NCBI GenBank assembly: GCA_011958945.1
Contig: BLLT01000015.1
Span: 1 to 37,613, forward strand
Reading direction: 5' to 3'
Origin: Lachnospiraceae bacterium
GTDB taxonomy: Bacteria > Bacillota > Clostridia > Lachnospirales > Lachnospiraceae
Length of the DNA stretch: 37,613 bases
Below the pieces are notes generated by a model. The model did not search any database and was not told the origin of the DNA. It worked only from the letters and a program-made list of their open reading frames with translations. A program made the position numbers and the translations under genes. Below are positions 8,524 to 37,543 of this stretch, piece by piece; positions within the stretch are counted from its first letter, which is position 1; every line of letters starts with the position of its first letter.

Positions 8524-8524
8524 T

Positions 8525-10804
8525 TTAATATCGGTAGCTTAGTGTCCATTGGGGTTGATTTATCGGTATTTCACCAAAATTCCAGTTTCCGTTTTCATCC
8601 GCCTGAAACCCCATCATATAACGCCACTTCGAATCTGTAAGGCGGTCATCAATGGGCCAGGGGAACTGATAAAATGAATATACGCTGCCTTTTGCTATTT
8701 TTACTTTTCCATCCACTTTGACTGCAACATAGATGGTAGACGGATTTCCGGTTGCTATTTCCAGTATTTGCCCATTTGGGTCTGTAGCAATATCTACTAC
8801 GATGGCAGCAGGGAGTTCCTGGGTATGTATTCCATCATTATTTTTTGGTAAGGTTTCCATCCAGAAATGCTCCAAGTTTCCGCCATAATTTCTTATAAAT
8901 TCATATTCTTCGTCACTTAGAACTTCATCTTGTAGTTCTTTTTTAGAAATAATAAAGAATTTCTCTGCTATTTCTTTTAACCTCATTAGGTTTTCTTCAT
9001 CTATTTTATCAAGCATCCTATATTTTTTCAGCCCGTCTGCTGTCAAACTAGCAAGACAGGCAAACCTTGAATATACAAGTGGTTCTGGTTCTACGTAACC
9101 TCTGTCATCCGGTTCCTCTTCCATATACCATCCCATTTCAGCCATAATTTGCTTTGTATAAAGGACAGTATCATGTTTTAGTTCCGCAAAACTACCTGCA
9201 AAACATTCTAAATTCTTTTTTGTCCATTCTTCATTCTGCATAAAGAAAGGATAGCCTTCCCCTTTCTTATCAAGAAGTGGGCGGAGGGTATTCAGCCAGT
9301 TGGCATAGAGGCTTGCTGTCCATAATGTTTGGTTGGAATCCGATAAGCTTTCTTTAAGCTTTGCCATATTTTCCGAATAATTTTTATATTCAGTATCGCC
9401 TTGTTGAGTTAGAATCTGAAGGGCCATATCTGAACCAAGAGCTGCGGGAACATCCAATACATCGGGCAGCATACGATTATCGCCAAAACTGTTTTGTTGG
9501 ACGTTATCATAAATAAGCTGCTGCATAATTGCCGCATCTATGGTAAAACGTTGCCCCATGAAGCGGAATCCTGGTATTGCATAGCTTTCCCATTCCATGA
9601 TAGGGATGGAATTTATCTTAGGGGATTCAAGGTTTGCTGTCATTTCGTGGAATTTATTGAAATTTTCCTGATTATTTGGCAAATCGTTGACTGATATATC
9701 TTTGCCATAGGCAGCTTCAATTAGAGGCCAATATTCAAAAATGCCGGAATCATCGCTTGTTCCTGCGAAAAAAGATGTTACGGCATAAATGCCCTTCCAA
9801 AGTTTATAGCTTTCAGCATCTTCCGCTAAAGCCATTGTAATCAACAAGGCACTTTTATCCAACTCTTCTTTATCCTGCCGAAAATGAATTCTCCCGTACC
9901 ACATCATTGCTTTGAAATAAGACTCTAATTGTTCATCGCCTTCATAATATCCTCTTGGGATATATTGGCTGTAATCTTCTTCATCTTCTGTTATTGAGGA
10001 AATAGCAATTCCTTCTGCAATATTTATTTTTTCCAATTCCTGTGATACTGTCGCTTCGGCATAATAATAAGAAGGAATTTCTGCATTCAGAAGCTTTGCT
10101 CCCACGGAAAAAAATGCAACATTACGGGCGGCAGCTTCTTCCCATTCACTTCCTTTCAATGCTTCATATTGTTTTGTGCTATTTTCAGCCATTTTTATGC
10201 TCAATTCCGTAAGATTATTTTCCAGATGATTCTTCTCAATATTTTTCATCAAATGACTGAAATATAAATGATAGGTATGCATCAAGGAATCTACTGTTAT
10301 AAAGTTTGGAATCATGCAATATTTATTCCATTCATATACTTGAAAAAATTCACTGCCTGAAAGTCCATCTACAACAAACCCGTTTTTTATAAATTTTTCT
10401 TTCATTCCATCTTCCATATAGACTTGCCAAAGATTATCAATATTACTTAAGTCCGGTTCAATGATATAAGGCATGACATTTGGCGAAGGCATTTCTTCCT
10501 CTTTTATATCGCTGATATTTAATAAGGAAGGCCTGCTTTTTTCTTCTTGTATGGAAGCAGCTAAAATTTGTTTATTTGATTCACTATTTGTTTCAATATC
10601 TGTTTCTTTATTTGTTTCATGATCTGTTTTCTTTTCAGTATTTTCTCTTTCACTTTCGGGATATTCTTCGCTTTCATCCGCTGAATATATGTTGGATTCC
10701 TCGTTTGTGCCGGATGTTTCACTTATATTTGAAAGGCCGCATCCTCCCAGTATACATGTTGTCAGAATTATCGAAAGTATCCTTTTTATCGTTTTCTTTT
10801 TCAT
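8525..10804 (-). CDS. DUF3160-type lipoprotein
   Basis: A 759-residue exported protein. The N-terminus is a lipoprotein signal peptide with lipobox LGGC at Cys22. A Ser/Thr/Glu-rich linker of about 70 residues follows (ETNKETDIETNSES). The rest resembles the DUF3160 family, with FITVDSLMHTYHLYFSHLM near residue 180 and a conserved C-terminal region including AAIVVDIATDPNG and IYVAVKVDGKVKIAKGSVY. The function of DUF3160 is not established. It shares a transcription unit with the downstream CapA-type protein, so both may act at the cell envelope. The ribosome binding site is AAAGGGGG on the minus strand. The family assignment comes from motif memory and was not searched. Confidence 0.75.
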   Translation of the reverse strand: MKKKTIKRILSIILTTCILGGCGLSNISETSGTNEESNIYSADESEEYPESERENTEKKTDHETNKETDIETNSESNKQILAASIQEEKSRPSLLNISDIKEEEMPSPNVMPYIIEPDLSNIDNLWQVYMEDGMKEKFIKNGFVVDGLSGSEFFQVYEWNKYCMIPNFITVDSLMHTYHLYFSHLMKNIEKNHLENNLTELSIKMAENSTKQYEALKGSEWEEAAARNVAFFSVGAKLLNAEIPSYYYAEATVSQELEKINIAEGIAISSITEDEEDYSQYIPRGYYEGDEQLESYFKAMMWYGRIHFRQDKEELDKSALLITMALAEDAESYKLWKGIYAVTSFFAGTSDDSGIFEYWPLIEAAYGKDISVNDLPNNQENFNKFHEMTANLESPKINSIPIMEWESYAIPGFRFMGQRFTIDAAIMQQLIYDNVQQNSFGDNRMLPDVLDVPAALGSDMALQILTQQGDTEYKNYSENMAKLKESLSDSNQTLWTASLYANWLNTLRPLLDKKGEGYPFFMQNEEWTKKNLECFAGSFAELKHDTVLYTKQIMAEMGWYMEEEPDDRGYVEPEPLVYSRFACLASLTADGLKKYRMLDKIDEENLMRLKEIAEKFFIISKKELQDEVLSDEEYEFIRNYGGNLEHFWMETLPKNNDGIHTQELPAAIVVDIATDPNGQILEIATGNPSTIYVAVKVDGKVKIAKGSVYSFYQFPWPIDDRLTDSKWRYMMGFQADENGNWNFGEIPINQPQWTLSYRY

Positions 10805-21631: not shown

Positions 21632-21694
21632 TCTCCTGTAGCAGAAGGAGGATGGCGTTGCATGCCGGATTCATTTTGTTACGGGAGATTTTTT
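21632..21694 (+). terminator. Terminator-like hairpin in the leader of the LytTR regulator gene
   Basis: TCTCCTGTAGC (21632-21642) pairs with GTTACGGGAGA (21678-21688) over 11 positions with two G-U wobbles. TTTTTT follows at once. The 35-base loop contains AGGAGG. It lies 47 bases before the response-regulator start, so it either ends flotillin transcription or acts as an attenuator for the two-component system. The ORF-track start at 21652 lies inside this loop and is rejected. Confidence 0.6.
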
Positions 21695-21741
21695 ACCATA
21701 TAGGAAATAAGCAGATATATAGGATTGAGGTGGAAAGTTTT

Positions 21742-22449
21742 ATGGTCAGGATAGCGATTGTGGAAGATGAAATAATGTATAAAAAACAGCTGGAAGATTT
21801 TTTGCATCAGTATGAGAAAGAGAGAAAAGAAACATTTGAAATTACTCTGTTTACAGATGGAGATGAAATAATAGAGAATTATAAGGCACAGTTTGATATT
21901 ATCCTTATGGATATTCAAATGCAGTTTATGGATGGAATGACTACAGCAGAGGCAATAAGGGAAGTGGATTCGGAAGTAATTATTATATTTATAACAAATC
22001 TGCGTCAGTATGCCATACGGGGGTATGCAGTGGATGCTCTGGACTATGTGGTAAAACCGATATCCTATTTTGCTTTTTCGGAGAGGTTAAACAGAGCTGT
22101 CAGGCGGTTGAAAAAAAGAACAAAACATACCATTATAGTGAAAATGAGGGGAGGTATAACACGGATTGATGTGGCGGATCTTTATTATGTGGAGAGCAGA
22201 GATCATACAATGATTTACCACACTGCCAAAAAAAATATAGAGGCGTCCGGTACAATGAAAGAAGCGGAAAATATGCTTGTAGAATTTCATTTTTTCAGAG
22301 GGAATAAAGGATATCTGATTAATTTAGCCCATGTGGATTCCATACAGAATGATTATGCCGTTGTCCGAGGGGAAAAACTGCTTTTAAGCAGATCCAGGAA
22401 GAATGCTTTTATGGAGGAATTGACAAATTACTGGGGGGAAGTGAAATAG
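21742..22449 (+). CDS. LytTR-family response regulator (AgrA/LytR-like)
   Basis: A 235-residue regulator. The receiver domain opens with VRIAIVEDE (acidic pocket). The phosphoacceptor is Asp57 in ILMDIQM, and the conserved Lys lies in VVKPISY. The LytTR DNA-binding domain covers about residues 130-235 (VKMRGGITRIDVADLYYVES ... LINLAHVDSI ... LLLSRSRKNAF). LytTR proteins bind pairs of direct repeats with an ACAGTT-like core. Such a pair occurs upstream of the first GH3 gene. The start is placed at ATG 21742, where the receiver begins behind GAGGTGG, not at the track's 21652. Two bases separate its stop from the histidine kinase gene, so they form an operon. Confidence 0.92.
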   Translation: MVRIAIVEDEIMYKKQLEDFLHQYEKERKETFEITLFTDGDEIIENYKAQFDIILMDIQMQFMDGMTTAEAIREVDSEVIIIFITNLRQYAIRGYAVDALDYVVKPISYFAFSERLNRAVRRLKKRTKHTIIVKMRGGITRIDVADLYYVESRDHTMIYHTAKKNIEASGTMKEAENMLVEFHFFRGNKGYLINLAHVDSIQNDYAVVRGEKLLLSRSRKNAFMEELTNYWGEVK

Positions 22450-22451
22450 GG

Positions 22452-23765
22452 ATGGAAAATGTATTTCTTGATATTCCGAGGCTTTATACGGCAATTGCAG
22501 AGTGGACGGCCTGCATGGTGTATATTTTGAATATGAAAAAACGTTTTAAAGGAAAAACTCTGGCATTTTTATCATTAGGCGGACTTTTGATACAGAGTTT
22601 TTTCCTTGTTGTGACAGGAAATGTAAATATCATCTGGTGGATTCCCTGTATGATTACAGCCGTAATTTTGATGATCGGCTTTATCTGGATTTGTCATAAA
22701 GGAGACTGGAAGGATGCAGTGTATGTAGGGCTTCATGCTTTTGTTCTTGCGGAATTTGCTGCGTCTTTAGAATGGCTTTTGCACTGTTATTTTTTTAATG
22801 AAAAAGCAACGGATGCTGTCAGTTTTTGGATGACGGCTGTTATTTATGGGATTGTTTATAGTTTTTATGCCAGTCTGTTAAAGCGCCAGCAGTTGGAAAA
22901 TGAACAGCTGGATATAAAAGGGCCGGAACTTATGGCGACATTGCTGATTGCAGTTTCGATTTTTTCTGTAAGCAATCTGAGTTTTGTTTCAATGGATACT
23001 CCTTTCAGTACTTCCTATCAGGGTGCAGTGGCTATCATCCGGACAATGGTGGATTTGGGCGGTGCGGCGATTATGTATGCCTATTATTTGCAGCGTTTTC
23101 AATTTCGAATGAAACAGGAACTTTCCCTTATGCAGAATATTGTCCAGAATCAGTATCTCCAATATCAGATGTCAAAAGAGAGCATTGATGTAATCAATTA
23201 TAAATACCATGATTTAAAACATCAGATTGCCGTGCTGAGGGCGGAAGAGAGCGCAGAAAAAAGGATGGCTTTCCTGGATAGCATGGAAGAAGAAATTCAC
23301 CAATACGAGGTACAGAATAAAACGGGAAACAAAGTATTGGATGCAGTGCTTACAAGCAAAAATGTGGTTTGTGAACAGAACGGGATTTCCTTAAACTGTG
23401 TGGCAGACGGAGAACTATTGGACTTTATGGATATTATGGATATCTGTACGATTTTGGGGAATGCTCTGGATAATGCCATTGAGTGTGAAAAAAAGATTCA
23501 GGAAAAGGAAAAAAGGCTGATAGATGTAGCAATTTTTTCGAAAAAGGATTTTCTTATTATGCGGTTTGAAAATTATTTTGATGGGGAATTAAAATTTTCA
23601 GAAGGTAATTTGAAGACAACAAAAACAAAAAGAAGCGAACTTCATGGCTATGGGATTAAAAGTATTAAGCATGCGGTAAAAAAATATGGCGGAGCGGTGA
23701 ATATTAATGTAGAGGAAAACTGGTTTGAATTAAAAGTGTTGATTCCTATTCCATCGAAAAACTGA
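22452..23765 (+). CDS. GHKL-type sensor histidine kinase (AgrC-like)
   Basis: A 437-residue kinase. The first about 215 residues are hydrophobic, with roughly six membrane helices (for example LLIQSFFLVVTGNVNIIWWI and MATLLIAVSIFSVSNLSFV). This is the AgrC/ComD-style sensor layout rather than an extracellular PAS domain. The phosphoacceptor His253 is in KYHDLKHQIAVLR. The GHKL ATPase has an N-box DICTILGNALDNAIE and a G-box GYGIKSIKHAVKKYGG. These kinases often sense peptides, but no agrB/agrD-like genes are seen here, so the ligand is unknown. It should phosphorylate the adjacent LytTR regulator. Confidence 0.9.
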   Translation: MENVFLDIPRLYTAIAEWTACMVYILNMKKRFKGKTLAFLSLGGLLIQSFFLVVTGNVNIIWWIPCMITAVILMIGFIWICHKGDWKDAVYVGLHAFVLAEFAASLEWLLHCYFFNEKATDAVSFWMTAVIYGIVYSFYASLLKRQQLENEQLDIKGPELMATLLIAVSIFSVSNLSFVSMDTPFSTSYQGAVAIIRTMVDLGGAAIMYAYYLQRFQFRMKQELSLMQNIVQNQYLQYQMSKESIDVINYKYHDLKHQIAVLRAEESAEKRMAFLDSMEEEIHQYEVQNKTGNKVLDAVLTSKNVVCEQNGISLNCVADGELLDFMDIMDICTILGNALDNAIECEKKIQEKEKRLIDVAIFSKKDFLIMRFENYFDGELKFSEGNLKTTKTKRSELHGYGIKSIKHAVKKYGGAVNINVEENWFELKVLIPIPSKN

Positions 23766-23824: not shown

Positions 23825-23858
23825 ACAGTTTACGAAAAAAAAATACAGTTTACGAAAA
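23825..23858 (+). promoter_or_regulatory. Direct-repeat LytTR-type binding site upstream of GH3 operon
   Basis: Two perfect 14-bp copies of ACAGTTTACGAAAA start at 23825 and 23845, a period of 20 bp. Each ACAGTTTAC fits the published LytTR consensus [TA][AC][CA]GTTN[AG][TC]. The ACAGTT core is the same as in AgrA sites. The gap between 9-mers is 11 bases rather than the usual 12-13. The pair ends 5 bases before the candidate -35 box, a typical activator position. Confidence 0.75.
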
Positions 23859-23863
23859 GTGCG

Positions 23864-23891
23864 TTTGCAGAATAAAAAAGAATGCTATACT
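23864..23891 (+). promoter_or_regulatory. Promoter of the surface GH3 operon
   Basis: TTTGCA (23864-23869), a 16-base spacer and TATACT (23886-23891). The -35 hexamer is poor and the -10 hexamer good, as expected for a promoter needing an activator bound just upstream. It leads to the GH3 start at 23930 behind AAGGAGG. Confidence 0.6.
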
Positions 23892-23929: not shown

Positions 23930-26900
23930 ATGTTTAGGAAAAAGTTAAACAAAACAGTGGCTCTGTTGTTGTGCGGCATTCTTACATTTAGTGTTATGGC
24001 ATGCGGCAACAGTACAGAACAGCCGGCAGAAATGCAGGAAGAAACAACACAGGAAACGTCTGATGCGTCCGAAAGTCCGGAAACGGTTCAGACGGCATCA
24101 CCGGAAACACCGGTGCTGTATGAGTCAGAGTATGGGAGCAAGGCGGAAGCTTTGGAGGCTGGCCTTGCACTGAATCTGGAAATTTCCAAAGAAGGTATGA
24201 TCCTTTTGAAGAATGAAGAAAAAGCACTTCCTCTTGCAGGCGGTGCAAAAGTAACGCTGCTCGGTTATGCGGCGATTAATCCGGATGCAGGCAGCGGAGC
24301 AAACGTAGTAGATGCTTCGGCAGGGGCTGCTATTGCAAAGAAAACTGTCATAACCAGCATGGAAGATGCGGGCTTTAGCCTGAATAAAACGGTGATTGAC
24401 CTGTATACTAAGTGGGAATCTGAGGATGTGGAAGGCGCAGAGGCGGATGACCAGGGAAATATTCCCAAGAAAACTTCCGATATTCTGGTTGCTGAGGACT
24501 TTGCAGAGGCTTCAGAGACAGATGAGTGGAAATCCTCAATTGAGGAATACAGTGATGCGGCTATCGTAGTTATTTCCGGTGGAACCGGTGAAATTTCAGG
24601 AGATGGAAGAGTGCATCCCTGTCAGTTGGATGATGTACAGTATGACCTGATTGATTATGCGACAGAAAATTTTGACAAAGTTATCGTACTGGTAAACAAA
24701 AGTACACCGATTGAGATAGCGGATATCCAGAGAAACAGCAAAGTAGATGCTGTGCTGAATATCGGTGAACCCGGTGATAACGGGTTTGATGCCCTTGGTA
24801 TGATTCTTTCCGGCGAGGTGAATCCTTCCGGCAGGACAGTGGATGCCTGGGCGGTAGATTTTACGAAGAACCCGTCTTATCCTATTTTCAACATCTCTTT
24901 GAGCGATGATGGACAGAGCACGGACGGAAACGGTAATCTGGTTGGATATACCCGTTACAGTGTAAACGGCGAACTGGTAGATACATGGTCCGTAGGTTAT
25001 GAAGAAGGTATCTATGTGGGATATAGATATTATGAGACAAGAGCTCACGAAGAAGGCGGCAGCTGGTGGGAAAATAATGTAAACTATCCTTTTGGCTATG
25101 GTCTTTCCTACACTGATTTCACATGGGAAGTTACACCTGCCACGGCGGCGGATTCTGCCATTACAAAAGATGACACATTGTCATTTGACGTAAAAGTAAC
25201 AAATAATGGCGATGTTGCAGGTAAAGATGTTGTTCAGCTGTATTATACGGCTCCTTATGGTGAAGAGGAGACCGGAAACGAAACGGTAATCGAGAAAGCT
25301 TATGTTGTCCTTGGGGATTATGCAAAGACAGGTATTATCGAACCGGGTGCCAGCGAGACAGTGACGCTTTCCGTAAAGGTATCCGATATGGCTTCTTATG
25401 ATGAAGTGACAGATAAGACTTATGTGCTGGATGCCGGTACATATAATGTAAAGATTGCAGAAAACTCACATTATGGAATGGGCGATAATGATATTGACTT
25501 TAATTATTCCGTAGGGGAAAAGGCTCTTTGCAATACGGCAGTGACAGGGGCAGAGATTACAAATGTTCTGGATGATGTGACAGAAGGCTTTAAGAGCGAA
25601 GGTTATACGGCACTGAGCCGCAGTGATTTTGCAGGCACTATGCCGGATGGTTTTGAACACGTAAAGGAAATTTCTGAGGAAGAACTGGCAACATGGAAAT
25701 ATGATGATGAGGCATTTAATGCTTATTATGATGCAGCAAGCATTGGTACGCCTGTTTATGAGACGGATGCGGCAAACCGTACGTCAGACAGATATAGTGT
25801 GGTACTTTCCGACTTAATCGGTGCAGATGCGGATGATCCTCGTTATCAGGAACTGGTAGAGCAGCTGACATTAGAAGAGATGATAAACATGGTGAATTCC
25901 GGCGGTTTTGATTCCGAGGCAATTCCTTATATAGGCAAACCTTATTCCCGTGATACGGACGGTCCTAAAGGCTGGACGGGCAACTATACGGATACAAATG
26001 ACAGATATAACTATTTTGCAGCAGAGCCTATGATAGCGGCAACCTATAATAATGATCTTCTTTACCAGATGGGCGTTATGATTGGCGAACAAGGTTTGTG
26101 GGGCAACAGCACACAGGAAAGCGGTATGGTTTATAACTATACAGGCTGGTATGCACCGGGCATGAATATTCATCGTTCTCCTTTCGACAGACGCGGATCT
26201 GAGTATTATTCGGAGGATCCTTACCTTACAGGAAAACTGGCAGCGAATGTGTCTCTGGGTGCAAAATCAAAAGGGGCTTACATTACGCTGAAGCACTTTG
26301 CATTCCACAATGACGGTGCCGGTTCGAGTACTTACCGTAACGGCGCGATGGGTGCAGATGGTACGGGAACAGGCGGTTTATCCGCATGGATGACAGAACA
26401 GGCTGCACGTGAAATTTACTTAAAAGGATTCCAGAGGGCGGTAGAAGAAGGCGAAGCAACGTTTGCAATGGGTTCCTTTACCAGAATCGGTAAGACATGG
26501 TGCGGCGGCAGTTATGCGGTGATGAATCAGATTACCCGCGGCGAGTGGGGATTCAAAGGATCGGTGGTAACAGATATCGTTATATATAATACATGTAATG
26601 CTTACCAGTTGATTAAATCGGGTGCTAATCTGATGCTGGATGCCATGGTTTATAATATAGAAGGCGGTATCTACCTGGATAAAGAAGAAATCCTTGCCAT
26701 GGATGAAGATGCAAAGAACATTACCATTCATTGTCTTCAGGAAGCAACAAAACAGGTTCTGTATATGGTTGCGAACAGCAATGCTATGCAGATGCCGAAG
26801 GGAACTAAAGTAGTTTATAAGGATACTGTTGAAGTGGACGGCGAAGATGTTGCGATGACGCTTGAAAATGCAAAAACAGGCGAAGCTTATACTTCCATAG

Positions 26901-27109
26901 AAGTGAATACGGCTATTCTGAATACTTATTATCCGTATTCCAATATTACTTATACAGTGGAAGGACTTCCGGAAGGATTAAGCTTTGATGCGGAAGCCGG
27001 CGTTATAAGCGGTATCCCGTCGGCGGCAGGAAGCTATACGGTTAAGATTACAGCAGAAGCGACAGGTTACGAATCCGCTTCTATAGAATTACCCCTTACC
27101 GTTGAATAA
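23930..27109 (+). CDS. Surface lipoprotein glycoside hydrolase family 3, circularly permuted
   Basis: A 1059-residue exported enzyme. Lipoprotein signal MFRKKLNKTVALLLCGILT has lipobox VMAC, followed by an acidic linker to about residue 60. Domain order is reversed compared with ordinary GH3. The C-type alpha/beta sandwich comes first (SKEGMILLKNEEKALPL near residue 85; acid/base candidate in GTGEISGDGR). The fibronectin-III-like domain is next (YPFGYGLSYTDF, VVQLYYTAPY). The catalytic barrel is last (DTDGPKGWTG, APGMNIHRSPFDRRGSEYYSEDP, LKHFAFHND). The predicted nucleophile is Asp882 in GSVVTDIVIYN. A C-terminal He_PIG/Ig-like domain (GLPEGLSFDAEAGVISGIPSAAG) follows. Permuted GH3s are known from rumen Clostridia. 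Beta-glucosidase-like activity is likely; the substrate is unknown. Confidence 0.88.
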   Translation: MFRKKLNKTVALLLCGILTFSVMACGNSTEQPAEMQEETTQETSDASESPETVQTASPETPVLYESEYGSKAEALEAGLALNLEISKEGMILLKNEEKALPLAGGAKVTLLGYAAINPDAGSGANVVDASAGAAIAKKTVITSMEDAGFSLNKTVIDLYTKWESEDVEGAEADDQGNIPKKTSDILVAEDFAEASETDEWKSSIEEYSDAAIVVISGGTGEISGDGRVHPCQLDDVQYDLIDYATENFDKVIVLVNKSTPIEIADIQRNSKVDAVLNIGEPGDNGFDALGMILSGEVNPSGRTVDAWAVDFTKNPSYPIFNISLSDDGQSTDGNGNLVGYTRYSVNGELVDTWSVGYEEGIYVGYRYYETRAHEEGGSWWENNVNYPFGYGLSYTDFTWEVTPATAADSAITKDDTLSFDVKVTNNGDVAGKDVVQLYYTAPYGEEETGNETVIEKAYVVLGDYAKTGIIEPGASETVTLSVKVSDMASYDEVTDKTYVLDAGTYNVKIAENSHYGMGDNDIDFNYSVGEKALCNTAVTGAEITNVLDDVTEGFKSEGYTALSRSDFAGTMPDGFEHVKEISEEELATWKYDDEAFNAYYDAASIGTPVYETDAANRTSDRYSVVLSDLIGADADDPRYQELVEQLTLEEMINMVNSGGFDSEAIPYIGKPYSRDTDGPKGWTGNYTDTNDRYNYFAAEPMIAATYNNDLLYQMGVMIGEQGLWGNSTQESGMVYNYTGWYAPGMNIHRSPFDRRGSEYYSEDPYLTGKLAANVSLGAKSKGAYITLKHFAFHNDGAGSSTYRNGAMGADGTGTGGLSAWMTEQAAREIYLKGFQRAVEEGEATFAMGSFTRIGKTWCGGSYAVMNQITRGEWGFKGSVVTDIVIYNTCNAYQLIKSGANLMLDAMVYNIEGGIYLDKEEILAMDEDAKNITIHCLQEATKQVLYMVANSNAMQMPKGTKVVYKDTVEVDGEDVAMTLENAKTGEAYTSIEVNTAILNTYYPYSNITYTVEGLPEGLSFDAEAGVISGIPSAAGSYTVKITAEATGYESASIELPLTVE

Positions 27110-27183: not shown

Positions 27184-27256
27184 TTCAAAATACCCATGGA
27201 ATCGGGTTGGAACTCTTACAGTAAATTTAAATCAGAAAAAAATGGAGGAAAATGGA

Positions 27257-27922
27257 ATGAAAAAGAAAGCGGCAGCTGCCGTACTCATGGCGGCGGTAAC
27301 GATATTTATGATAGCTTGCGGCGGCAGTAACGATGCGGGGAACGGTGCAGCGCCTGAAAGTGAAGAGACGGCGGAAGCTGAAGAAGAAAGTGCAGATACA
27401 GAAGGAACGGGAACAGAATATATTTTTGAAGCAGAATATACCGTATTGGAAGGGCTGGAAGGACTCGGCGTATCCGGTTCGCCGACAGGAATAGGCCTTG
27501 CAAAGGAAAAAGCCAGTGCAAGTAATGGATTTTATGTAGGAGAACTCGGCACATCCAGTCCGATTACTTTTGTGATTACATCTGATGCCGATGCAGCAGC
27601 TACTTTAAAAGGCGTATTCGGCTCCAATGCTTTGGGAAACTGCAGTTGGAATCCGGAAAGCTTTATTGTGACTGTGAACGGCGAAGCAGTCCAGTATGAG
27701 GAATTTACAACGGATAATGGAATGGATGCAAACGATCAGGAAAATTTCAAGACAAAAAATCTTGGTGAAATTCAGTTAAAAGCAGGAGAAAATGAGATTG
27801 TTTTTGTTGCAGGGGATAACACCTATCGAAGCAATCTTCCCAGTGCACCTTCTATAGACTGTCTGAAAATTACAACAGAAGCGGCGCTTTCCATGGAAGA
27901 AGTTGTGGAAAATATTGAATAA
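27257..27922 (+). CDS. Small lipoprotein with carbohydrate-binding-module-like domain
   Basis: A 221-residue exported protein. The signal peptide MKKKAAAAVLMAAVTIFM ends in lipobox MIAC, and an acidic Glu/Ala/Asp linker runs to about residue 55. The remaining about 160 residues look like a beta-sandwich of the CBM6/CBM35 type: it opens with FEAEYTVLEG and has GFYVGEL, an ILE/Val-rich core, and closes with PSIDCLKIT. There are no catalytic motifs. The start follows GGAGG at ATG 27257; the track start 27242 covers that ribosome binding site. Lying between two surface GH3 genes, it may hold or present glycan to them. The family assignment is by overall pattern only. Confidence 0.7.
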   Translation: MKKKAAAAVLMAAVTIFMIACGGSNDAGNGAAPESEETAEAEEESADTEGTGTEYIFEAEYTVLEGLEGLGVSGSPTGIGLAKEKASASNGFYVGELGTSSPITFVITSDADAAATLKGVFGSNALGNCSWNPESFIVTVNGEAVQYEEFTTDNGMDANDQENFKTKNLGEIQLKAGENEIVFVAGDNTYRSNLPSAPSIDCLKITTEAALSMEEVVENIE

Positions 27923-27942: not shown

Positions 27943-27980
27943 TGCGATTCCTCTGTTAAGGGATTGCGGCAGAAATGGAG
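27943..27980 (+). repeat. Possible divergent leader element before second permuted GH3
   Basis: TGCGATTCCT (27943-27952) pairs with AGGGATTGCG (27959-27968) over 10 positions with wobbles, loop CTGTTA. GGCAGAAATGGAG follows, giving the ribosome binding site. The 3' 12-mer is identical to the family end, but the hairpin sequence differs. It may be a relative or convergence on a strong ribosome binding site. Confidence 0.35.
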
Positions 27981-27986
27981 AAGATC

Positions 27987-30980
27987 ATGGGGTTAATTTG
28001 GAAGAATAAGAAGACGAGGATATGGCTGATTGTAACGGCTATTGTACTTGTTCTGGGGATTGTGGTTAATGCTGTTTTGCTGAGCGTGCCGATTGTAACA
28101 AATTCATTGAGCCTTGTTTTTGGCGGAGAACGTGCGAATATTACCGAGGATAACAGGACGGAATGGTATGACAGGCAATATGCCAGCAAGGAAGAAGTAT
28201 TGGATGCGGCAAATGATTTTGTAATCGAGGTGGAAAAGGAAGGAATCGTACTCCTTAAAAATGAAAATGATGCGCTTCCCCTGTCAGGCAAAGATGCACA
28301 TATCAGTGTATTTGGCAAGAACTCAGTAAATATCGTTTATTCCGGCTCCGGTTCAGCCAGCAGCAACAGTTCCACTGCACAAAGAACATTGTATGAAAGC
28401 CTTGAAGCGGCGGGAATCTCCTACAATGAAACATTGAAAAGCTTTTATGAGGATTCCGGGAAATCCGGTAAAGGAAGGCCGGAAAATCCCGCTATGACAT
28501 CGGGACAGAGGCTTCCAGGGTTCGGAACCGGCGAAACACCGATGGATTCCTATACTCCGGATGTGGTAGACAGTTATGCCGGATATCAGGATGCGGCGGT
28601 TGTAGTTTTTTCCAGAATCGGCGGCGAGGGTTTTGATCTTCCCAGGGCAATGGCAGAGAGCTTTAACGGTGCCGCTGTGGCGGGGGCTTCGGCGGACAGC
28701 CATTATCTGGAACTGGATGAGAACGAGAAGGCTCTTTTAGAGCATGTAAAAGAAAATTTTTCAAAGGTTATTGTCGTACTGAATGTAGGAACTACCATGG
28801 AAATACCTGAATTGAAGGCGGATGAGGATATTGATGCGATTCTCTGGATAGGATTTCCGGGTGCAACAGGCATTATGGCATTAGGACAGATTTTAACAGG
28901 AACGGATACGGAAGGAAACCAGATTAGCCCTTCCGGCCATACGGTGGATACTTGGGCGGCAGATTTTACGATGGACCCGACCTGGTATAATACTGGTATT
29001 TATGGCAGTGAATATGGCAACCGTTACCTTTATAACGGTGAAACAACGGATTATGCGTTTGTAAACTATGAAGAAGGAATCTATGTGGGATACCGTTATT
29101 ATGAGACCCGGGGCTATGAAGAAGCAGCGGCAGATCCTCAGTCCGTATGGTATGAGAACAGTGTAGTGTATCCTTTTGGGTATGGGCTTTCCTATACGGA
29201 ATTTGACTGGGATGTTTCCTTTGGAACGGATTCCGGCAGCGGAATTACAGCAGATGATACACTGGAGGTATCTGTCACAGTGAAAAATACCGGTGATTAT
29301 GCGGGGAAAGATGTAGTAGAGCTATATTACAGCGCACCGTATGATTACGAGAGTCCGGCGATTGAAAAGTCTCATGTTGTTTTAGGGGATTTTGCTAAAA
29401 CAGATATTTTGGCGCCAGGGGAAGAACAGACGCTTACCCTTACATTAGATGTGGAAGACATGAAGTCTTATGATTATGCAGACGCCAACGAAAACGGATT
29501 CAGCGGGTATGAACTGGAGGCCGGCGAATATCGTATTATTATTGGAAGTGATGCACATACAGCGAAAGCGGATGCAGTGTATACTCTTTCAGAAGATTTG
29601 CAGCTTAAGACAGATATGAATGCGGACGGTGAAGAAACAGAAGTTGCAAATGCATTTGATGATGTCAGTGCCGGTATATTTGGAACGAATACATACGCAT
29701 CTTATGTATCCCGAAAGGACTTTGAGGGTACGCTCCGGACGGAATATCTGGATGATGCCGAAAGAACTTTGACAGATGAACTCAAAGAAGAACTGGACGA
29801 AAGCATCAAGCGTAAATATACGGAACCCGATGCCGGAAAACCTTGGGAAGTGGCGGGAGATGCTCCGGCTATAGTACCGGTGAACAGCGGATTATCCTTG
29901 AGGGATATGCTTTATGATGAAGCAGGAAACTATGTGGGAGAGGTGTCTTTTGACGATCCCAGGTGGGAAACATTGTTAAATGAGATTTCCCTTGATGAGA
30001 TGAAAAATCTGGTGGGATTCGGCGCTTTCCGTACAAGTGAAGTAAAAGGTGTGGACGGAGTGGTGGGAAAACCGCTTACTGTGGATTCAGACGGGCCAAG
30101 CGGGTTTACAAGCTTTTTGTCGGAATCTGTTGTCTATGGTACTTGCGCTTATCAGGCAGAATGTGTGATGGGTTCTACATGGAATGTCCAACTGGCAGAG
30201 AAAATGGGTGAACTGATAGGAGAAGAAGGGCTTGCCGGAAATGAAAAAGGAGACGGGCTGCCTTATTCCGGATGGTACGCTCCGGCGGTTAATATCCATC
30301 GCTCTCCTTTTGCAGGAAGAAATTGGGAGTATTACAGTGAAGACGGTCTGCTGTCCGGTAAGTTTGCAGCCAGTGTAATCAAAGGAGCGGGCAAAAAAGG
30401 CGTTTATTGCTATGTGAAACATTTTGCAGTAAATGATCAGGAGACAGACAGAGAGTATAACGGTATTCTCGTCTGGGCGAACGAACAGTCAATGCGTGAG
30501 ATTTATCTGTATCCTTTTGAGATTGCAGTAAAAGAAGGCGGGGCGACAGGTATGATGTCTTCTTTCAACCGTCTGGGTATGAAATGGGCAGGCGGGAGTT
30601 ACGCATTGCTTACACAGGTGCTCCGTGATGAGTGGGGGTTCCATGGTTCAGTTATTACAGATTACAGCCTGAATACTTATACACATGTGGATGAAATGAT
30701 ACGCGCCGGCGGCGACCTGTTCTTGACACAGGATGTCAAAACATTTGGTATGGAGGATGATGCGACACAAATTGCTATGCTTAGACAGAGCACAAAAAAT
30801 ATTTTGTATATGGTTGCGAACAGCAGCGCCATGAGTATTTCGACAGACGGATATTTAAGGCCGGTATGGCAGATAGTTATGATTTGCGTTGATATTGTTA
30901 TTGTTGCGGCATTGGCTCTTTGGGGTATGTTTGCGGTTCGTTCTGTAAAAAAGAAAGAACAGCAGGGAGAAAAAGCGTAA
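27987..30980 (+). CDS. Membrane-bound glycoside hydrolase family 3, circularly permuted, helix at both ends
   Basis: A 997-residue enzyme. A basic N-terminus (KNKKTR) precedes helix 1 (IWLIVTAIVLVLGIVVNAVLL). A large outside region follows, and a final helix (IVMICVDIVIVAALALWGMF) with a Lys-rich tail returns inside. Domain order is again GH3_C (EKEGIVLLKNENDALPL; acid/base candidate in GGEGFDLPR), Fn3-like (YPFGYGLSYTEFDW), then the catalytic barrel (SDGPSGFTSF, APAVNIHRSPFAGRNWEYYSEDG, KHFAVNDQE). The nucleophile is predicted as Asp892 in GSVITDYSLN. The start at 27987 is chosen because GGAG lies 7 bases upstream; the track start 27975 contains that site. It is the last gene before a strong terminator. 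The substrate is unknown. Confidence 0.88.
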   Translation: MGLIWKNKKTRIWLIVTAIVLVLGIVVNAVLLSVPIVTNSLSLVFGGERANITEDNRTEWYDRQYASKEEVLDAANDFVIEVEKEGIVLLKNENDALPLSGKDAHISVFGKNSVNIVYSGSGSASSNSSTAQRTLYESLEAAGISYNETLKSFYEDSGKSGKGRPENPAMTSGQRLPGFGTGETPMDSYTPDVVDSYAGYQDAAVVVFSRIGGEGFDLPRAMAESFNGAAVAGASADSHYLELDENEKALLEHVKENFSKVIVVLNVGTTMEIPELKADEDIDAILWIGFPGATGIMALGQILTGTDTEGNQISPSGHTVDTWAADFTMDPTWYNTGIYGSEYGNRYLYNGETTDYAFVNYEEGIYVGYRYYETRGYEEAAADPQSVWYENSVVYPFGYGLSYTEFDWDVSFGTDSGSGITADDTLEVSVTVKNTGDYAGKDVVELYYSAPYDYESPAIEKSHVVLGDFAKTDILAPGEEQTLTLTLDVEDMKSYDYADANENGFSGYELEAGEYRIIIGSDAHTAKADAVYTLSEDLQLKTDMNADGEETEVANAFDDVSAGIFGTNTYASYVSRKDFEGTLRTEYLDDAERTLTDELKEELDESIKRKYTEPDAGKPWEVAGDAPAIVPVNSGLSLRDMLYDEAGNYVGEVSFDDPRWETLLNEISLDEMKNLVGFGAFRTSEVKGVDGVVGKPLTVDSDGPSGFTSFLSESVVYGTCAYQAECVMGSTWNVQLAEKMGELIGEEGLAGNEKGDGLPYSGWYAPAVNIHRSPFAGRNWEYYSEDGLLSGKFAASVIKGAGKKGVYCYVKHFAVNDQETDREYNGILVWANEQSMREIYLYPFEIAVKEGGATGMMSSFNRLGMKWAGGSYALLTQVLRDEWGFHGSVITDYSLNTYTHVDEMIRAGGDLFLTQDVKTFGMEDDATQIAMLRQSTKNILYMVANSSAMSISTDGYLRPVWQIVMICVDIVIVAALALWGMFAVRSVKKKEQQGEKA

Positions 30981-31042: not shown

Positions 31043-31075
31043 ATGGTTACTTATCGGGTCAGTAGGAAGAAAAGA

Positions 31076-31190
31076 TTGGAAATTGAAAATTTTCAATCCA
31101 AAGTTTGCGTCTGCGCGGCATCCACAAATTTGACATACGTAAAGCCCCGGAAATGCCGGGTCACAAATGCAGTGCAGAAATGGAGAAAAG
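31076..31190 (+). repeat. Full copy of interspersed structured leader element before cytoplasmic GH3
   Basis: The palindrome ATTGAAAATTTTCAAT (31082-31097) is followed by TTTGCG and the left arm TCTGCGCGGCAT (31110-31121). Its partner ATGCAGTGCAGA (31167-31178) pairs over 12 positions with one mismatch and one wobble. Between them is a hairpin CCCGG-AAATG-CCGGG (31146-31160). AATGGAG directly follows the right arm and is the ribosome binding site for ATG 31193. The sequence is closely similar to 36732-36840. Confidence 0.9.
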
Positions 31191-31192
31191 AG

Positions 31193-33640
31193 ATGAAATT
31201 AAAATATCAAAATATTATTTCACAAATGTCTTTGGAAGAAAAATGTTATATGTTTTCCGGCAAAGATTTTTGGCAGACCAGAAGTGTGGAACGTGTCGGG
31301 ATAAAGAGTATTATGTTGTCGGATGGGCCTCATGGTGTCAGGAAACAGGAGGGAACAGGAGATCAGCTAGGGTTAAATCCCTCTTTGCCGGCCACCTGCT
31401 TTCCGACGGCTGCAACGATTGCAAACAGCTGGGATACTTCATTAGGAGAAGAAATCGGCCGTATGATAGGTGAGGAGGCGGCAAGCCAGGGAGTCAGCGT
31501 GATACTTGGACCCGGCATGAATATTAAAAGAAACCCATTATGCGGCAGAAATTTTGAATATTTTTCTGAAGATCCATATCTTTCGGGAAAGATGGCGGCG
31601 GGCTATATTAAAGGGATTCAGGAAAATGGCGTGGCGGCCTGCCCCAAACACTTCGCGGCAAACTCGCAGGAACTTAGACGGATGGCAAGTGATTCTGTGG
31701 TGGATGAACGGACACTTCGGGAGATTTATTTGACAGGGTTTGAGATTGCGGTAAAAGAATCAAAGCCCAAAAGTCTCATGTCTTCTTATAATCGTGTAAA
31801 TGGTGTGTATGCTAATGAAAATGAACATCTGTTGCAGGAAATTCTGCGGGATGAATGGGGATTTGACGGGTTTGTGGTTTCTGATTGGGGCGGAAGCAAT
31901 GACCATGTAGAAGGCGTGAGAGCAGGCTCCCATTTGGAGATGGCCACTACCGGGGGTGACAGTGATGAAGAATTGATTCGGGCGGTGAAAGAAGGCCGGA
32001 TCAGCGAAGAACTGATAGACAGGAGATTGGATGAGTTTTTAGATGTTATTTTTTCTGCCAGAGAGGCGGTAGAGAAGGCGGCAGATAGTACATTCGATGT
32101 GGAATCCCATCATAAAATTGCACAGAAGGCCAGCGAAGAAAGTATTGTGCTTTTGAAAAACGAGAATAATATTCTGCCTTTAAAAAAGGGAACTTCCGTA
32201 GCGCTGATTGGTGATTTTGCTGATACGCCCAGATACCAGGGGGCAGGATCTTCCGGCGTAAACCCAACGAAATTAGATTCTGCGAAAGCTGTCATCGGGC
32301 AGTTTGACTTGAAGGTGGCAGGGTATGAGCAGGGATATCCAAGGGTAGGATCAAGGAATATCATGATGCGGGATCAGGCGGTGGAACTTGCGAAACATGT
32401 TGATGTTGTACTTCTTTATCTGGGATTGGATGAAATTTCTGAGACAGAGGGGCTTGACAGGAAGCATATGAGGCTTCCGGAAAGCCAGACAGATCTGCTC
32501 CATAAGATTGCACAAGTGAATGAGAATATTGTAGTTGTTATGGCAGCCGGTTCTCCGGTGGAAATGCCGTGGTTAAATGAATGTAAAGCATTGATCCATG
32601 GGTATTTATGCGGACAGGCGGGTGCTGCGGCTATGTTGAAAGCGATTATGGGAGAGGTAAACCCGTCAGGGAAACTGTCCGAAACATATCCGGTCTCCTA
32701 TGAGGATACACCGTCTGCACCATATTTCCCGTCAAAACAAAGAAATGTGGAATATCGGGAGGGATTGTATGTGGGCTACCGTTATTTTGAGACAGTGGAA
32801 AAGCCTGTGTTATTTCCGTTTGGGTATGGCTTAAGTTATACAACATATGAATATTCCGATTTACATATAGAAACTCATGAAGAAAACAGGGAGAATCCCG
32901 TTACTGTATCTTTTAGAATTACGAATACCGGAAAACAGGACGGAGCGGAAGTGGTGCAGATTTATGTGGGCGCGAAAGAACCTTCCGTTTATCGTCCTGC
33001 AAAGGAATTGAAGGGATTTGCAAAAGTATTCCTGAAAGCCGGTGAAAGCCGGGAAATAGTGATTCCTCTGGATGATAAAGCTTTCCGTTATTTTAATGTA
33101 AAGACAAACCGTTTTGAAATCGATGGCGGAGAATATGAAATTATGGCAGGGGCTTCTGTGGCGGATATCCGCCTTCGGGGTATTGTGTCTATAGCCGGAA
33201 CAAAAGCGCCGGCTTCTTGTGATATGGAAAATCTTCCGGATTATGCGTCAGGGGAAATTTTATCTGTTCCTGACAGGGAGTGGAAAGAACTGCTGGGGCA
33301 TGAAATCCCTGACGGGGAATGGAGCGGAACTTTGGAAGCAAATGATGCGTTATGCCAGATGTATTATGCCAGAAGCCTTCTTGCAAGGCTGGCATATAAA
33401 ATTTTGACGAACATGCTGAATAGAAGCATTAAAAAAGGAAAGCCGGACTTAAATATTACCTTTATTTATAATATGCCGTTTAGGGGGATAGGTAAAATGA
33501 CGGGCGGGCTAGTAAGTCAATGTATGGTGGACGGGATCGTAAAAATGGTAAACGGCCATTTCTGCAGAGGGGCAGGACAGGTGATTTCCGGTTATTTTAA
33601 ACAGCGAAAAGTCCTGAAAAAGGCAAATACGATGAAATAA
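31193..33640 (+). CDS. Cytoplasmic glycoside hydrolase family 3 (beta-glucosidase type), canonical order
   Basis: An 815-residue GH3 without signal peptide. The order is normal. The catalytic barrel has LSDGPHGVRKQ, GPGMNIKRNPLCGRNFEYFSEDP and KHFAANSQE, with nucleophile Asp231 in GFVVSDWGG. The alpha/beta sandwich follows (EESIVLLKNENNILPLKKG; acid/base candidate in SETEGLDRKHMRLPE). The Fn3-like domain is next (FPFGYGLSYTTYEYSD, GAEVVQIYVGAKEPS). An extra C-terminal segment of about 130 residues (for example LNITFIYNMPFRGIGKMTGG) has amphipathic character. The track start 31043 runs through a terminator and the leader repeat, so ATG 31193 is used. It probably hydrolyses imported oligosaccharides or glycosides. 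It is linked to the GtrA-like gene 48 bases downstream. Confidence 0.93.
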   Translation: MKLKYQNIISQMSLEEKCYMFSGKDFWQTRSVERVGIKSIMLSDGPHGVRKQEGTGDQLGLNPSLPATCFPTAATIANSWDTSLGEEIGRMIGEEAASQGVSVILGPGMNIKRNPLCGRNFEYFSEDPYLSGKMAAGYIKGIQENGVAACPKHFAANSQELRRMASDSVVDERTLREIYLTGFEIAVKESKPKSLMSSYNRVNGVYANENEHLLQEILRDEWGFDGFVVSDWGGSNDHVEGVRAGSHLEMATTGGDSDEELIRAVKEGRISEELIDRRLDEFLDVIFSAREAVEKAADSTFDVESHHKIAQKASEESIVLLKNENNILPLKKGTSVALIGDFADTPRYQGAGSSGVNPTKLDSAKAVIGQFDLKVAGYEQGYPRVGSRNIMMRDQAVELAKHVDVVLLYLGLDEISETEGLDRKHMRLPESQTDLLHKIAQVNENIVVVMAAGSPVEMPWLNECKALIHGYLCGQAGAAAMLKAIMGEVNPSGKLSETYPVSYEDTPSAPYFPSKQRNVEYREGLYVGYRYFETVEKPVLFPFGYGLSYTTYEYSDLHIETHEENRENPVTVSFRITNTGKQDGAEVVQIYVGAKEPSVYRPAKELKGFAKVFLKAGESREIVIPLDDKAFRYFNVKTNRFEIDGGEYEIMAGASVADIRLRGIVSIAGTKAPASCDMENLPDYASGEILSVPDREWKELLGHEIPDGEWSGTLEANDALCQMYYARSLLARLAYKILTNMLNRSIKKGKPDLNITFIYNMPFRGIGKMTGGLVSQCMVDGIVKMVNGHFCRGAGQVISGYFKQRKVLKKANTMK

Positions 33641-33688: not shown

Positions 33689-34255
33689 ATGAAGTTTTTT
33701 GAAAGTTTTTCTGAAAAACATCCAAAAGCTGCCCAGTGGATCAGGGAAGGCGGATTGTTTCTTATCTTCAGTTATGTGATTACATTTTTAAAATATCTGA
33801 TGCTGTTGTTTTTGCCGAAATTGTTTTCTGCTTATGCGGATAACGGCTGGGGGTGGCCGGGAATTGAAGGCAGCCTGTTTGGTATATCGTTCACATTTAA
33901 TGTAATAGGATATGCTGTTGCGGACGGCGGTATGGCATATATGTTTGCAAATCTGGTGTCTAGTCTGTTGGGGGAGTGCGTTAATTTCCCTCTGCAGAGA
34001 AATATTACATTTCGCAGCAAAGGGCCGTTAAAGCTTCAGATACCGCTTTACTTTATGGGATGGCTCGTTATTTTCTTAGTTGTAAATGCCATAAACAGTG
34101 TGTGGGTAGGCGTGGCAAAGGTATTGCTTCCCGCAGCGGTTTATAACATCGGAACGACTGTTCTTACCGGCGGTGTGGCGATGGTTGTGTTTTTTGTTGT
34201 GAATAAAATAATTTTTGCGGAAGGATTCGGAGAGAAGAAAAAGATAGAAATTTAA
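33689..34255 (+). CDS. GtrA-like family membrane protein
   Basis: A 188-residue membrane protein with about four helices (LFLIFSYVITFLKYLMLLFLP; AYMFANLVSSLLG; IPLYFMGWLVIFLVVNAI; GTTVLTGGVAMVVFFVVNK). The motif ECVNFPLQRNITFRSKG matches the N-F-x(3)-R-x-x-T/V-F loop typical of GtrA/GtcA proteins. Those proteins help move or use undecaprenyl-linked sugars during cell-surface glycosylation. The Trp-rich outside loop (NGWGWPG) is longer than in small GtrA proteins. AGGAGC lies upstream. It is probably co-transcribed with the cytoplasmic GH3, and a terminator follows. A role in this locus, perhaps exporting a lipid-linked sugar, is inference. Confidence 0.72.
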   Translation: MKFFESFSEKHPKAAQWIREGGLFLIFSYVITFLKYLMLLFLPKLFSAYADNGWGWPGIEGSLFGISFTFNVIGYAVADGGMAYMFANLVSSLLGECVNFPLQRNITFRSKGPLKLQIPLYFMGWLVIFLVVNAINSVWVGVAKVLLPAAVYNIGTTVLTGGVAMVVFFVVNKIIFAEGFGEKKKIEI

Positions 34256-36731: not shown

Positions 36732-36840
36732 TCAAAGGACGTTTGATATTGAGAGTTTGCGTCTGTGCGGCATCCAGAAACTTGCTATGCATAAAGCCCC
36801 GGCGATGCCGGGTCACAAAAGCCGCGCAGAAATGGAGGAA
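36732..36840 (+). repeat. Full copy of interspersed structured leader element before ABC ATPase
   Basis: A small inverted repeat TCAAA-GGACG-TTTGA (36732-36746) comes first. The left arm TCTGTGCGGC (36762-36771) pairs along its whole length with GCCGCGCAGA (36821-36830), with one G-U pair. A 6-bp hairpin CCCGGC-GAT-GCCGGG (36798-36812) lies inside. AATGGAGG directly follows the right arm and is the ribosome binding site for ATG 36845. It is closely similar to the copy at 31076-31190 and to the orphan core at 13514-13570. Confidence 0.9.
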
Positions 36841-36844
36841 AAAA

Positions 36845-37543
36845 ATGTTACAGACTAAAAACCTGACAAAAACATATGGGAAGTATAAAGCGGCAGACAA
36901 CGTAAATCTTACCGTTGAAAGCGGCGAGATAGGAATTCTTTTAGGGCCCAATGGCGCCGGTAAATCCACGGTGATTAAAAGCATTGCGGGATTGCTGCGG
37001 TATAAAGGAGAAGTATTGATAGAAGGCATGGATGCCAAAAGCATAGAAGCCAAGAAAATTTTTGCCTATGTGCCCGAACTTCCTGCAATGTATGAAGCGC
37101 TGACGGTGCGTGAACATATAGAGTTTATTATAAAGGCCTATAAGCTTTCTGTTTCAGAAGAGGAAATAGGGGAATTATTTGAACGGTTCGAACTGTCTGA
37201 TAAGCAGGATAAATTAGGAAATGAATTATCTAAGGGGATGATGCAGAAAGTGAGCATCTGCTGTGCCCTTATCATAAAGCCCAAAGTTATTATGTTGGAT
37301 GAACCTATGGTAGGGTTGGACCCTGCGGCTATTAAGGAATTAAAGAAAGTCATCCTGGAAATGAAAGAAGCAGGAACTACCATACTCATCAGTACCCATA
37401 TGCTGGAAATGGTAAAGGAACTTTGGGATGTGATGTTTGTAATGGATAAAGGAAATATTGTGGCTTCTTATAAGAAGAGTGATGTAAAGGATGAGGATTT
37501 AGAGGATCTGTTCTTCCATGTCACGGACTTTGAGAAAGTATGA
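36845..37543 (+). CDS. ABC transporter ATP-binding protein
   Basis: A 232-residue ABC ATPase. It opens LQTKNLTKTYGKYKAADNVNL and has Walker A GPNGAGKST near residues 35-43. A divergent signature LSKGMMQKVSICCAL lacks the usual SGGQ. Walker B is VIMLDEPMVGLDP, and the switch His is in ISTHMLE. The type is that of drug, lantibiotic or membrane-lipid exporters with a separate permease, which should follow beyond the right edge. The track start 36743 translates the leader repeat and is rejected; ATG 36845 follows GGAGG. The substrate cannot be inferred. Confidence 0.93.
   Translation: MLQTKNLTKTYGKYKAADNVNLTVESGEIGILLGPNGAGKSTVIKSIAGLLRYKGEVLIEGMDAKSIEAKKIFAYVPELPAMYEALTVREHIEFIIKAYKLSVSEEEIGELFERFELSDKQDKLGNELSKGMMQKVSICCALIIKPKVIMLDEPMVGLDPAAIKELKKVILEMKEAGTTILISTHMLEMVKELWDVMFVMDKGNIVASYKKSDVKDEDLEDLFFHVTDFEKV

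Follow-up and report, generated by a model that had tools for sequence, protein, structure and literature searches.

The window, that is, the whole stretch of 37,613 nucleotides that was analysed, carries a gene for a family GH3 glycosidase with a transmembrane (TM) helix at each end. On the same strand lie the genes of a LytTR response regulator, a GHKL histidine kinase, a second permuted GH3, a small lipoprotein, a cytoplasmic GH3 and a GtrA-like membrane protein (Table 1). The ORF of the double-TM GH3 extends from 27975 to 30980 and encodes 1001 amino acids. Position 27987, given as the start in the preliminary description of this DNA, corresponds to M5. It is probably the true start, because a GGAGAAG motif lies directly upstream and the orthologues begin at the equivalent methionine (L061). 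The three Pfam domains of the protein all scored above the curated cut-offs, with 94.6 bits for the barrel (PF00933) and 109.5 bits for the sandwich (PF01915), as it is expected for a member of family GH3.

Table 1. Features of the locus, in order of position, with the basis of each assignment. Residue numbers refer to the double-TM GH3.
Feature	Position	Strand	Basis and remarks
LytTR response regulator	21652..22449	+	PF04397 and PF00072
GHKL histidine kinase, multi-TM N-terminal part	22452..23765	+	PF14501, 1.9e-28; in a clade with other linked kinases
Direct repeat ACAGTTTACGAAAA, two copies, 20-bp period, candidate LytTR operator	23825..23858	+	Upstream of the partner GH3 gene
Second permuted GH3 (partner), lipoprotein, C-terminal He_PIG (Ig-like) domain	23930..27109	+	Pfam; conserved binding Arg lost
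Small lipoprotein, CBM35-like fold	27257..27922 (ORF opens at 27242)	+	Structure model, Foldseek
Permuted GH3, TM helix at each end	27987..30980	+	Pfam, hydropathy, AlphaFold, alignment
N-terminal TM helix (predicted), residues 16-38	28020..28088	+	Hydropathy, conservation, AlphaFold; W17, T21 and polar 32 kept
GH3_C alpha/beta sandwich, residues 91-373, placed first	28245..29093	+	PF01915, 2.9e-31
Acid/base Glu218 (GGEGFD)	28626..28628	+	Aligned to the SGEGYD glutamate of 2x40; invariant in 62
FnIII-like domain, residues 446-526	29310..29552	+	PF14310
GH3 (beta/alpha)8 barrel match, residues 727-898, placed last	30153..30668	+	PF00933
Nucleophile Asp896 (ITDY)	30660..30662	+	Aligned to the Asp mutated in 2x42; invariant in 62
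C-terminal TM helix (predicted), residues 963-987	30861..30935	+	Hydropathy, conservation, AlphaFold
Canonical-order cytoplasmic GH3 beta-glucosidase, C-terminal extension	31193..33640 (ORF opens at 31043)	+	Pfam, structure match
GtrA-like membrane protein	33689..34255	+	PF04138, 28.1 bits (cut-off 26.1); recurrent beside double-TM GH3

Two strongly hydrophobic segments, and only two, were found in the GH3, at residues 18-36 (KD 2.98) and 967-985 (KD 2.59); the third-ranking segment is internal and reaches 1.55. In the AlphaFold model (mean pLDDT 90.1, pTM 0.91) helices span residues 12-37 and 964-1000. The first helix is followed by an amphipathic helix and a strand, and the chain ends in a basic tail after the second one. 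The positive-inside rule is obeyed at both ends of the window protein and at both ends of 82 among 102 homologues; taken singly, the N side conforms in 83 of these homologues and the C side in 100. Both helices are present in every full-length close relative, and in none of the 29 canonical-order GH3s of the same loci. This control is unaffected by the bias of the 121/135 figure, which arises because the ORFs behind it were picked by similarity to the double-TM query. Conservation was also found at specific positions of the 62 homologues aligned: W17 (54/62), T/S21 (53/62) and N/S/T/D32 (56/62) in helix 1, and W965 (61/62), D/N/E at 973 (56/62), W983 (53/62) and G984 (53/62) in helix 2. Chance hydrophobicity was ruled out as the origin of the helices, since both are kept in residues and in position. 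The preliminary description of a GH3 bracketed by TM helices, with positive residues on the inner side of both, is borne out by hydropathy, the model and the homologues. That the protein would be tethered to the membrane and face outward is likewise supported by the hydropathy, the charge distribution, the conserved helices and the model.

According to Pfam, the domains of this GH3 follow the order sandwich-FnIII-barrel, which is the reverse of that in ordinary GH3s and the same as in GlyA1. The protein is circularly permuted and has the domain order of the GlyA1-type subfamily, a feature that the preliminary description overlooked. The best fold matches among solved structures were the permuted enzymes 5wvp/5wug and GlyA1 (5k6l-o), with E values of 1e-54 to 1e-57. 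In the alignment with the canonical enzyme 2x40 of T. neapolitana, residue 918 falls on residue 262 and residue 67 on residue 313. In the AlphaFold model a strand at 53-59 comes right after the first TM helix, and another one at 955-961 right before the second, an arrangement that agrees with neighbouring termini. The helix-bearing ends must be close in space, because a short linker joins the equivalent points in ordinary GH3s. In the permuted protein the chain is broken at the junction of barrel and sandwich; therefore the termini would be neighbours and the helices would form one two-helix stalk. Based on alignment and model, it is most likely that the helices leave the enzyme side by side as a single stalk, rather than as two distant pins. 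It had been proposed that the fold is pinned to the membrane at two points; the two helices are there, but the permuted order probably puts both at one site of the enzyme. The possibility of being anchored by both ends at one place would be a simple reason for keeping the permutation.

The family GH3 pair of an Asp nucleophile and a Glu acid/base is present as D896 and E218. Together with R782, K815 and H816, these residues are invariant over the 62 homologues, down to 33% identity. Catalytic competence can be deduced from this invariance, and the double-TM GH3 is predicted to be an active exo-beta-glycosidase.

Orthologues at 82-91% were found in Kineothrix alysoides and other Lachnospiraceae, and more distant orthologues in many Clostridia MAGs. 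Matches at E<=1e-60, which include some permuted GH3s without TM helices, occurred in 73 of 397 sampled Lachnospiraceae genomes, and matches at E<=1e-80 in 4 of 399 genomes across the phylum. Homologues with both helices were also seen in single MAGs labelled Izemoplasmatales (L079) and Acholeplasmataceae (L116), which are wall-less relatives; these cases could be attributed to transfer or to binning error.

In the loci retrieved, the LytTR regulator and the GHKL histidine kinase are recurrent companions of the double-TM GH3. Within the window's own clade they are joined by another permuted GH3 and by a small protein that is either secreted or a lipoprotein, and in many Lachnospiraceae by a cytoplasmic GH3 and a GtrA-like protein. 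In the 27 partner GH3s of the window's clade the nucleophile is kept and the ETxR arginine is lost in all, while the acid/base column holds Glu in 6, among them the window's partner, and Gln in 1; the other 20 have neither. By its residues, this partner family may be drifting towards a binding role. The window's own partner is not claimed as a clear dead enzyme, as a Glu aligns at its acid/base position and the nucleophile is kept, with the ETxR arginine lost. The surface anchor of the partner differs by species: some have a lipobox, some just a signal peptide and others a C-terminal TM tail that follows GGCG.

The small lipoprotein (226-aa ORF) was modelled with a pLDDT of 84, and Foldseek matched the model to 2wz8 (E 2.1e-6) and 2w3j (TM-score 0.50/0.76). 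No significant match to a CBM sequence family was found in Pfam, hence the designation of CBM35-like fold only. The cytoplasmic GH3 is close to ordinary beta-glucosidases (7ms2, 1.4e-217). Its tail past the FnIII domain comprises about 100 residues, and a similar tail occurs in L197 and L198. The relatives of the GtrA-like protein scored 19.8-31.3 bits against PF04138, several of them below the cut-off. In the genomes searched, this divergent GtrA-like subgroup mostly adjoins the double-TM GH3 module. The GtrA family includes undecaprenyl-phosphate-sugar flippases.

The regulator and kinase genes display the features of a GHKL/LytTR system, namely a GHKL ATPase domain, a multi-TM kinase and an adjoining receiver-LytTR regulator. 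Among Lachnospiraceae genomes, a LytTR regulator and a GHKL kinase lie within 9 kb of the double-TM permuted GH3 at 21 of 26 loci. The loci without the full pair at this distance are L140, which is a short contig, L150, L151, L153, which has the regulator alone, and L154. In contrast, the linked kinase type was found at none of the 19 permuted GH3 loci without TM helices, where one weak GHKL match occurs (p=3e-8 for the contrast, or 4e-7 if the weak match is counted). This indicates that the two-component system accompanies the membrane anchor and not permuted GH3s generally, and the permuted fold alone is ruled out as the cause of the link. In five genomes, a GHKL gene is found no more than 8 kb away from each of the 15 long permuted GH3s, but from only 6 of 41 other GH3s (p=3e-9), most of them located in the same clusters. 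A high GHKL background was ruled out as well, with about 4% expected within 8 kb versus the 15/15 found. In a complete genome from another family of the phylum (L197) the kinase, the regulator, a cytoplasmic GH3, a GtrA-like protein and a double-TM GH3 occur together. L198 has a permuted GH3 without TM helices, and the kinase is absent.

A quick maximum-likelihood tree separated 66 GH3-linked kinases from 11 unlinked GHKL kinases sampled in the same genomes (SH-aLRT 99); in this tree, the GH3-linked kinases form one lineage. The 47 kinases that match the window kinase at E<1e-75 all come from genomes that have a match to the double-TM GH3, and 32 of the 47 lie within 12 kb of a GH3 copy, among the matches listed. 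Several of the remaining close kinases adjoin a cytoplasmic GH3, a GtrA-like gene or another permuted GH3.

The direct repeat upstream of the partner GH3 gene, which we take to resemble LytTR operators, is located just before a promoter-like site at 23864-23891. Operator-like repeats were detected in 5 of 26 homologous partner upstream regions, compared with a background of 2.4% (p=3e-4), and upstream of other genes in 6/95 and 6/40. An operator common to all homologues is not borne out, the repeats being present in a minority of the partner upstream regions. In the window, this consensus-like repeat is the candidate site at which the LytTR regulator would bind to control the GH3 promoter. A dispersed repeat of about 90 bp is present at 31102-31195 and 36754-36847. 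It contains a CCCGG...CCGGG inverted repeat, and the ribosome-site-like GGAG at its end is followed by a start codon. The genome has 40 scored copies, many of them at contig ends. Elsewhere in the window, the adjacent genes of a PGA_cap protein and a DUF3160 protein (6925-10804, reverse strand) lie beside gyrB-gyrA.

The explanation that we prefer, with a probability of about 0.6, is that the double-TM GH3 is an active permuted beta-glycosidase, tethered by two TM helices, that works with the GHKL/LytTR system in a surface module for sugar processing and sensing. The two helices (N-in, C-in) would hold the enzyme on the outer face of the cytoplasmic membrane. We infer that, at the cell surface, it would trim beta-glucosides or oligosaccharides and that the kinase would sense what is released or removed and switch on surface genes through the LytTR repeats. 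With enzyme, binding proteins and sensor sharing one membrane, product and signal would stay local. The module would comprise the dedicated two-component system, often together with a cytoplasmic GH3 and a GtrA-like protein, to which the second permuted GH3, with its binding arginine lost, and the CBM35-like lipoprotein would be added here. A bolder version makes the GH3 itself a co-sensor, whose binding or turnover would be relayed via the helices (Asp 973 and the polar positions 21 and 32) to the membrane domain of the kinase. We consider it rather unlikely; if true, it would mean that a glycosidase-gated two-component system is spread through Clostridia.

The adjacency of GH3 and kinase has another reading, as the two-component system may just regulate the enzyme, as in ordinary sugar-use loci. 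The helices would then only retain a scavenging beta-glucosidase at the surface, and the kinase and regulator would form an inducer-responsive switch of a small sugar-use locus. This is a realistic option, although we give it less than an even chance. It accounts for most of the facts: gene adjacency is equally expected, the neighbouring cytoplasmic GH3 is of the ordinary beta-glucosidase kind, and the surface partners are held by other means too (lipobox or GGCG-TM-KKK tail). However, no sugar transporter recurs as part of the module at the loci listed, the kinase subfamily tracks the TM helices and not the permuted GH3 as such (0/19), and specific helix residues are conserved beyond the needs of simple anchoring.

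It had been argued earlier that an enzyme held in this way is unusual for a glycosidase and points to a membrane-proximal substrate such as a glycolipid, a lipid-linked sugar or a glucosylated (lipo)teichoic acid. The argument is weak, as the architecture is common in permuted GH3s and tracks the LytTR/GHKL system, and such a substrate is unlikely. The recurrence of the divergent GtrA-like protein in the module is the only genomic hint of it, and this match is weak (21-31 bits). In addition, no synthase for glycolipids or teichoic acids recurs among the seven loci listed. Those permuted relatives that have been solved and characterised act on oligosaccharides and bioses, as beta-glucosidases or beta-glycosidases (PMC5104943, PMC11233000). 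The homologues with both helices in MAGs of wall-less relatives (L079, L116), the binning of which carries the usual doubt, count as evidence against a wall teichoic acid.

The tethering by both ends depends on helix 1 being retained. An A-x-A motif follows this helix in 7 of 62 GH3s, whereas 20 of the 27 partner proteins carry a signal peptidase or lipobox motif, and the uncharged run is longer than in the partners (median 21 versus 17 residues). At matched core identity, helix 1 was more conserved than the partner signal peptides in three comparisons (0.33/0.20, 0.34/0.27 and 0.46/0.30). These values favour a retained anchor, possibly with some packing role. If helix 1 were cleaved as a signal peptide, the mature protein would be of type I and keep just its C-terminal anchor. 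Such cleavage is unlikely in view of these differences and of the amphipathic helix and strand modelled after it, although signal peptide and anchor are inseparable by hydropathy alone and the GH3s of Butyrivibrio were described as "secreted, with a C-terminal TMH" (PMC2914790).

Bacteroides outer-membrane sugar machinery is absent from Gram-positive gut bacteria, in which, to our knowledge, the sensing of glycans at the cell surface is poorly known. The module described here suggests an overlooked system for sugar processing and sensing. One GHKL/LytTR kinase subfamily paired with one type of tethered GH3 lends itself readily to genetic work in cultured strains, Kineothrix alysoides among them, where it could be asked which sugar switches the module on and whether the enzyme has a part in the signal.

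As compared with known systems, the window shares with AgrC/AgrA-type systems a multi-TM GHKL kinase, a LytTR regulator and, as a candidate, a repeat-type operator upstream of a promoter-like site. It differs from them in that its constant neighbours are GH3 enzymes, and no agrB/agrD-like peptide genes were recognised beside the two-component system of the window. GlyA1 from a rumen metagenome (5k6l-o, PMC5104943) has in common with the window GH3 the sandwich-FnIII-barrel order, the catalytic residues and a long linker from FnIII to barrel (fold match with E values of 3.6e-54 to 5.6e-57, identity about 27%). However, no TM helices are present in GlyA1 according to PMC5104943, and it ends in a soluble extra domain, GlyA1-Ct. 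This domain is lacking in the window GH3, which has the TM helix and the basic tail instead; since GlyA1-Ct occurs in only about half of the cluster (PMC5104943), it is not strictly defining. The beta-glucosidase of Paenibacillus barengoltzii (5wug/5wvp) and BrGH3A (PMC11233000) are permuted GH3 beta-glucosidases, like the window GH3. Unlike the latter, neither is described with a TM helix in the text consulted, and BrGH3A lacks a signal peptide and is considered cytoplasmic.

A precedent is found in Butyrivibrio. It was reported in 2010 that each of the three LytTR regulators of B. proteoclasticus has in its vicinity a secreted GH3 that carries a C-terminal TM helix (PMC2914790). These GH3s of strain B316 (PUL7, 21 and 33) resemble the window GH3 in the C-terminal TM helix and in lying next to LytTR genes. 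Matched by description, they and bgl3D of B. hungatei (PMC5716241) very likely belong to the same group as the window GH3. The remark in PMC2914790 is one sentence, with no mention of the permutation, the N-terminal anchor, the kinase clade, GtrA or the wider distribution. For a double-TM form of GH3, the open-access literature, subscription papers aside, gives only the 2010 and 2017 remarks on Butyrivibrio. Already known are family GH3, its permuted subfamily (PMC5104943, PMC11233000) and GHKL/LytTR systems, and the link between GH3 and LytTR was glimpsed in PMC2914790. As far as the open-access literature shows, the new points are the double anchor on the permuted fold, the contrast with permuted GH3s that have no TM helices, the grouping of the linked kinases in one lineage, and a module in which a cytoplasmic GH3 and a GtrA-like protein recur.
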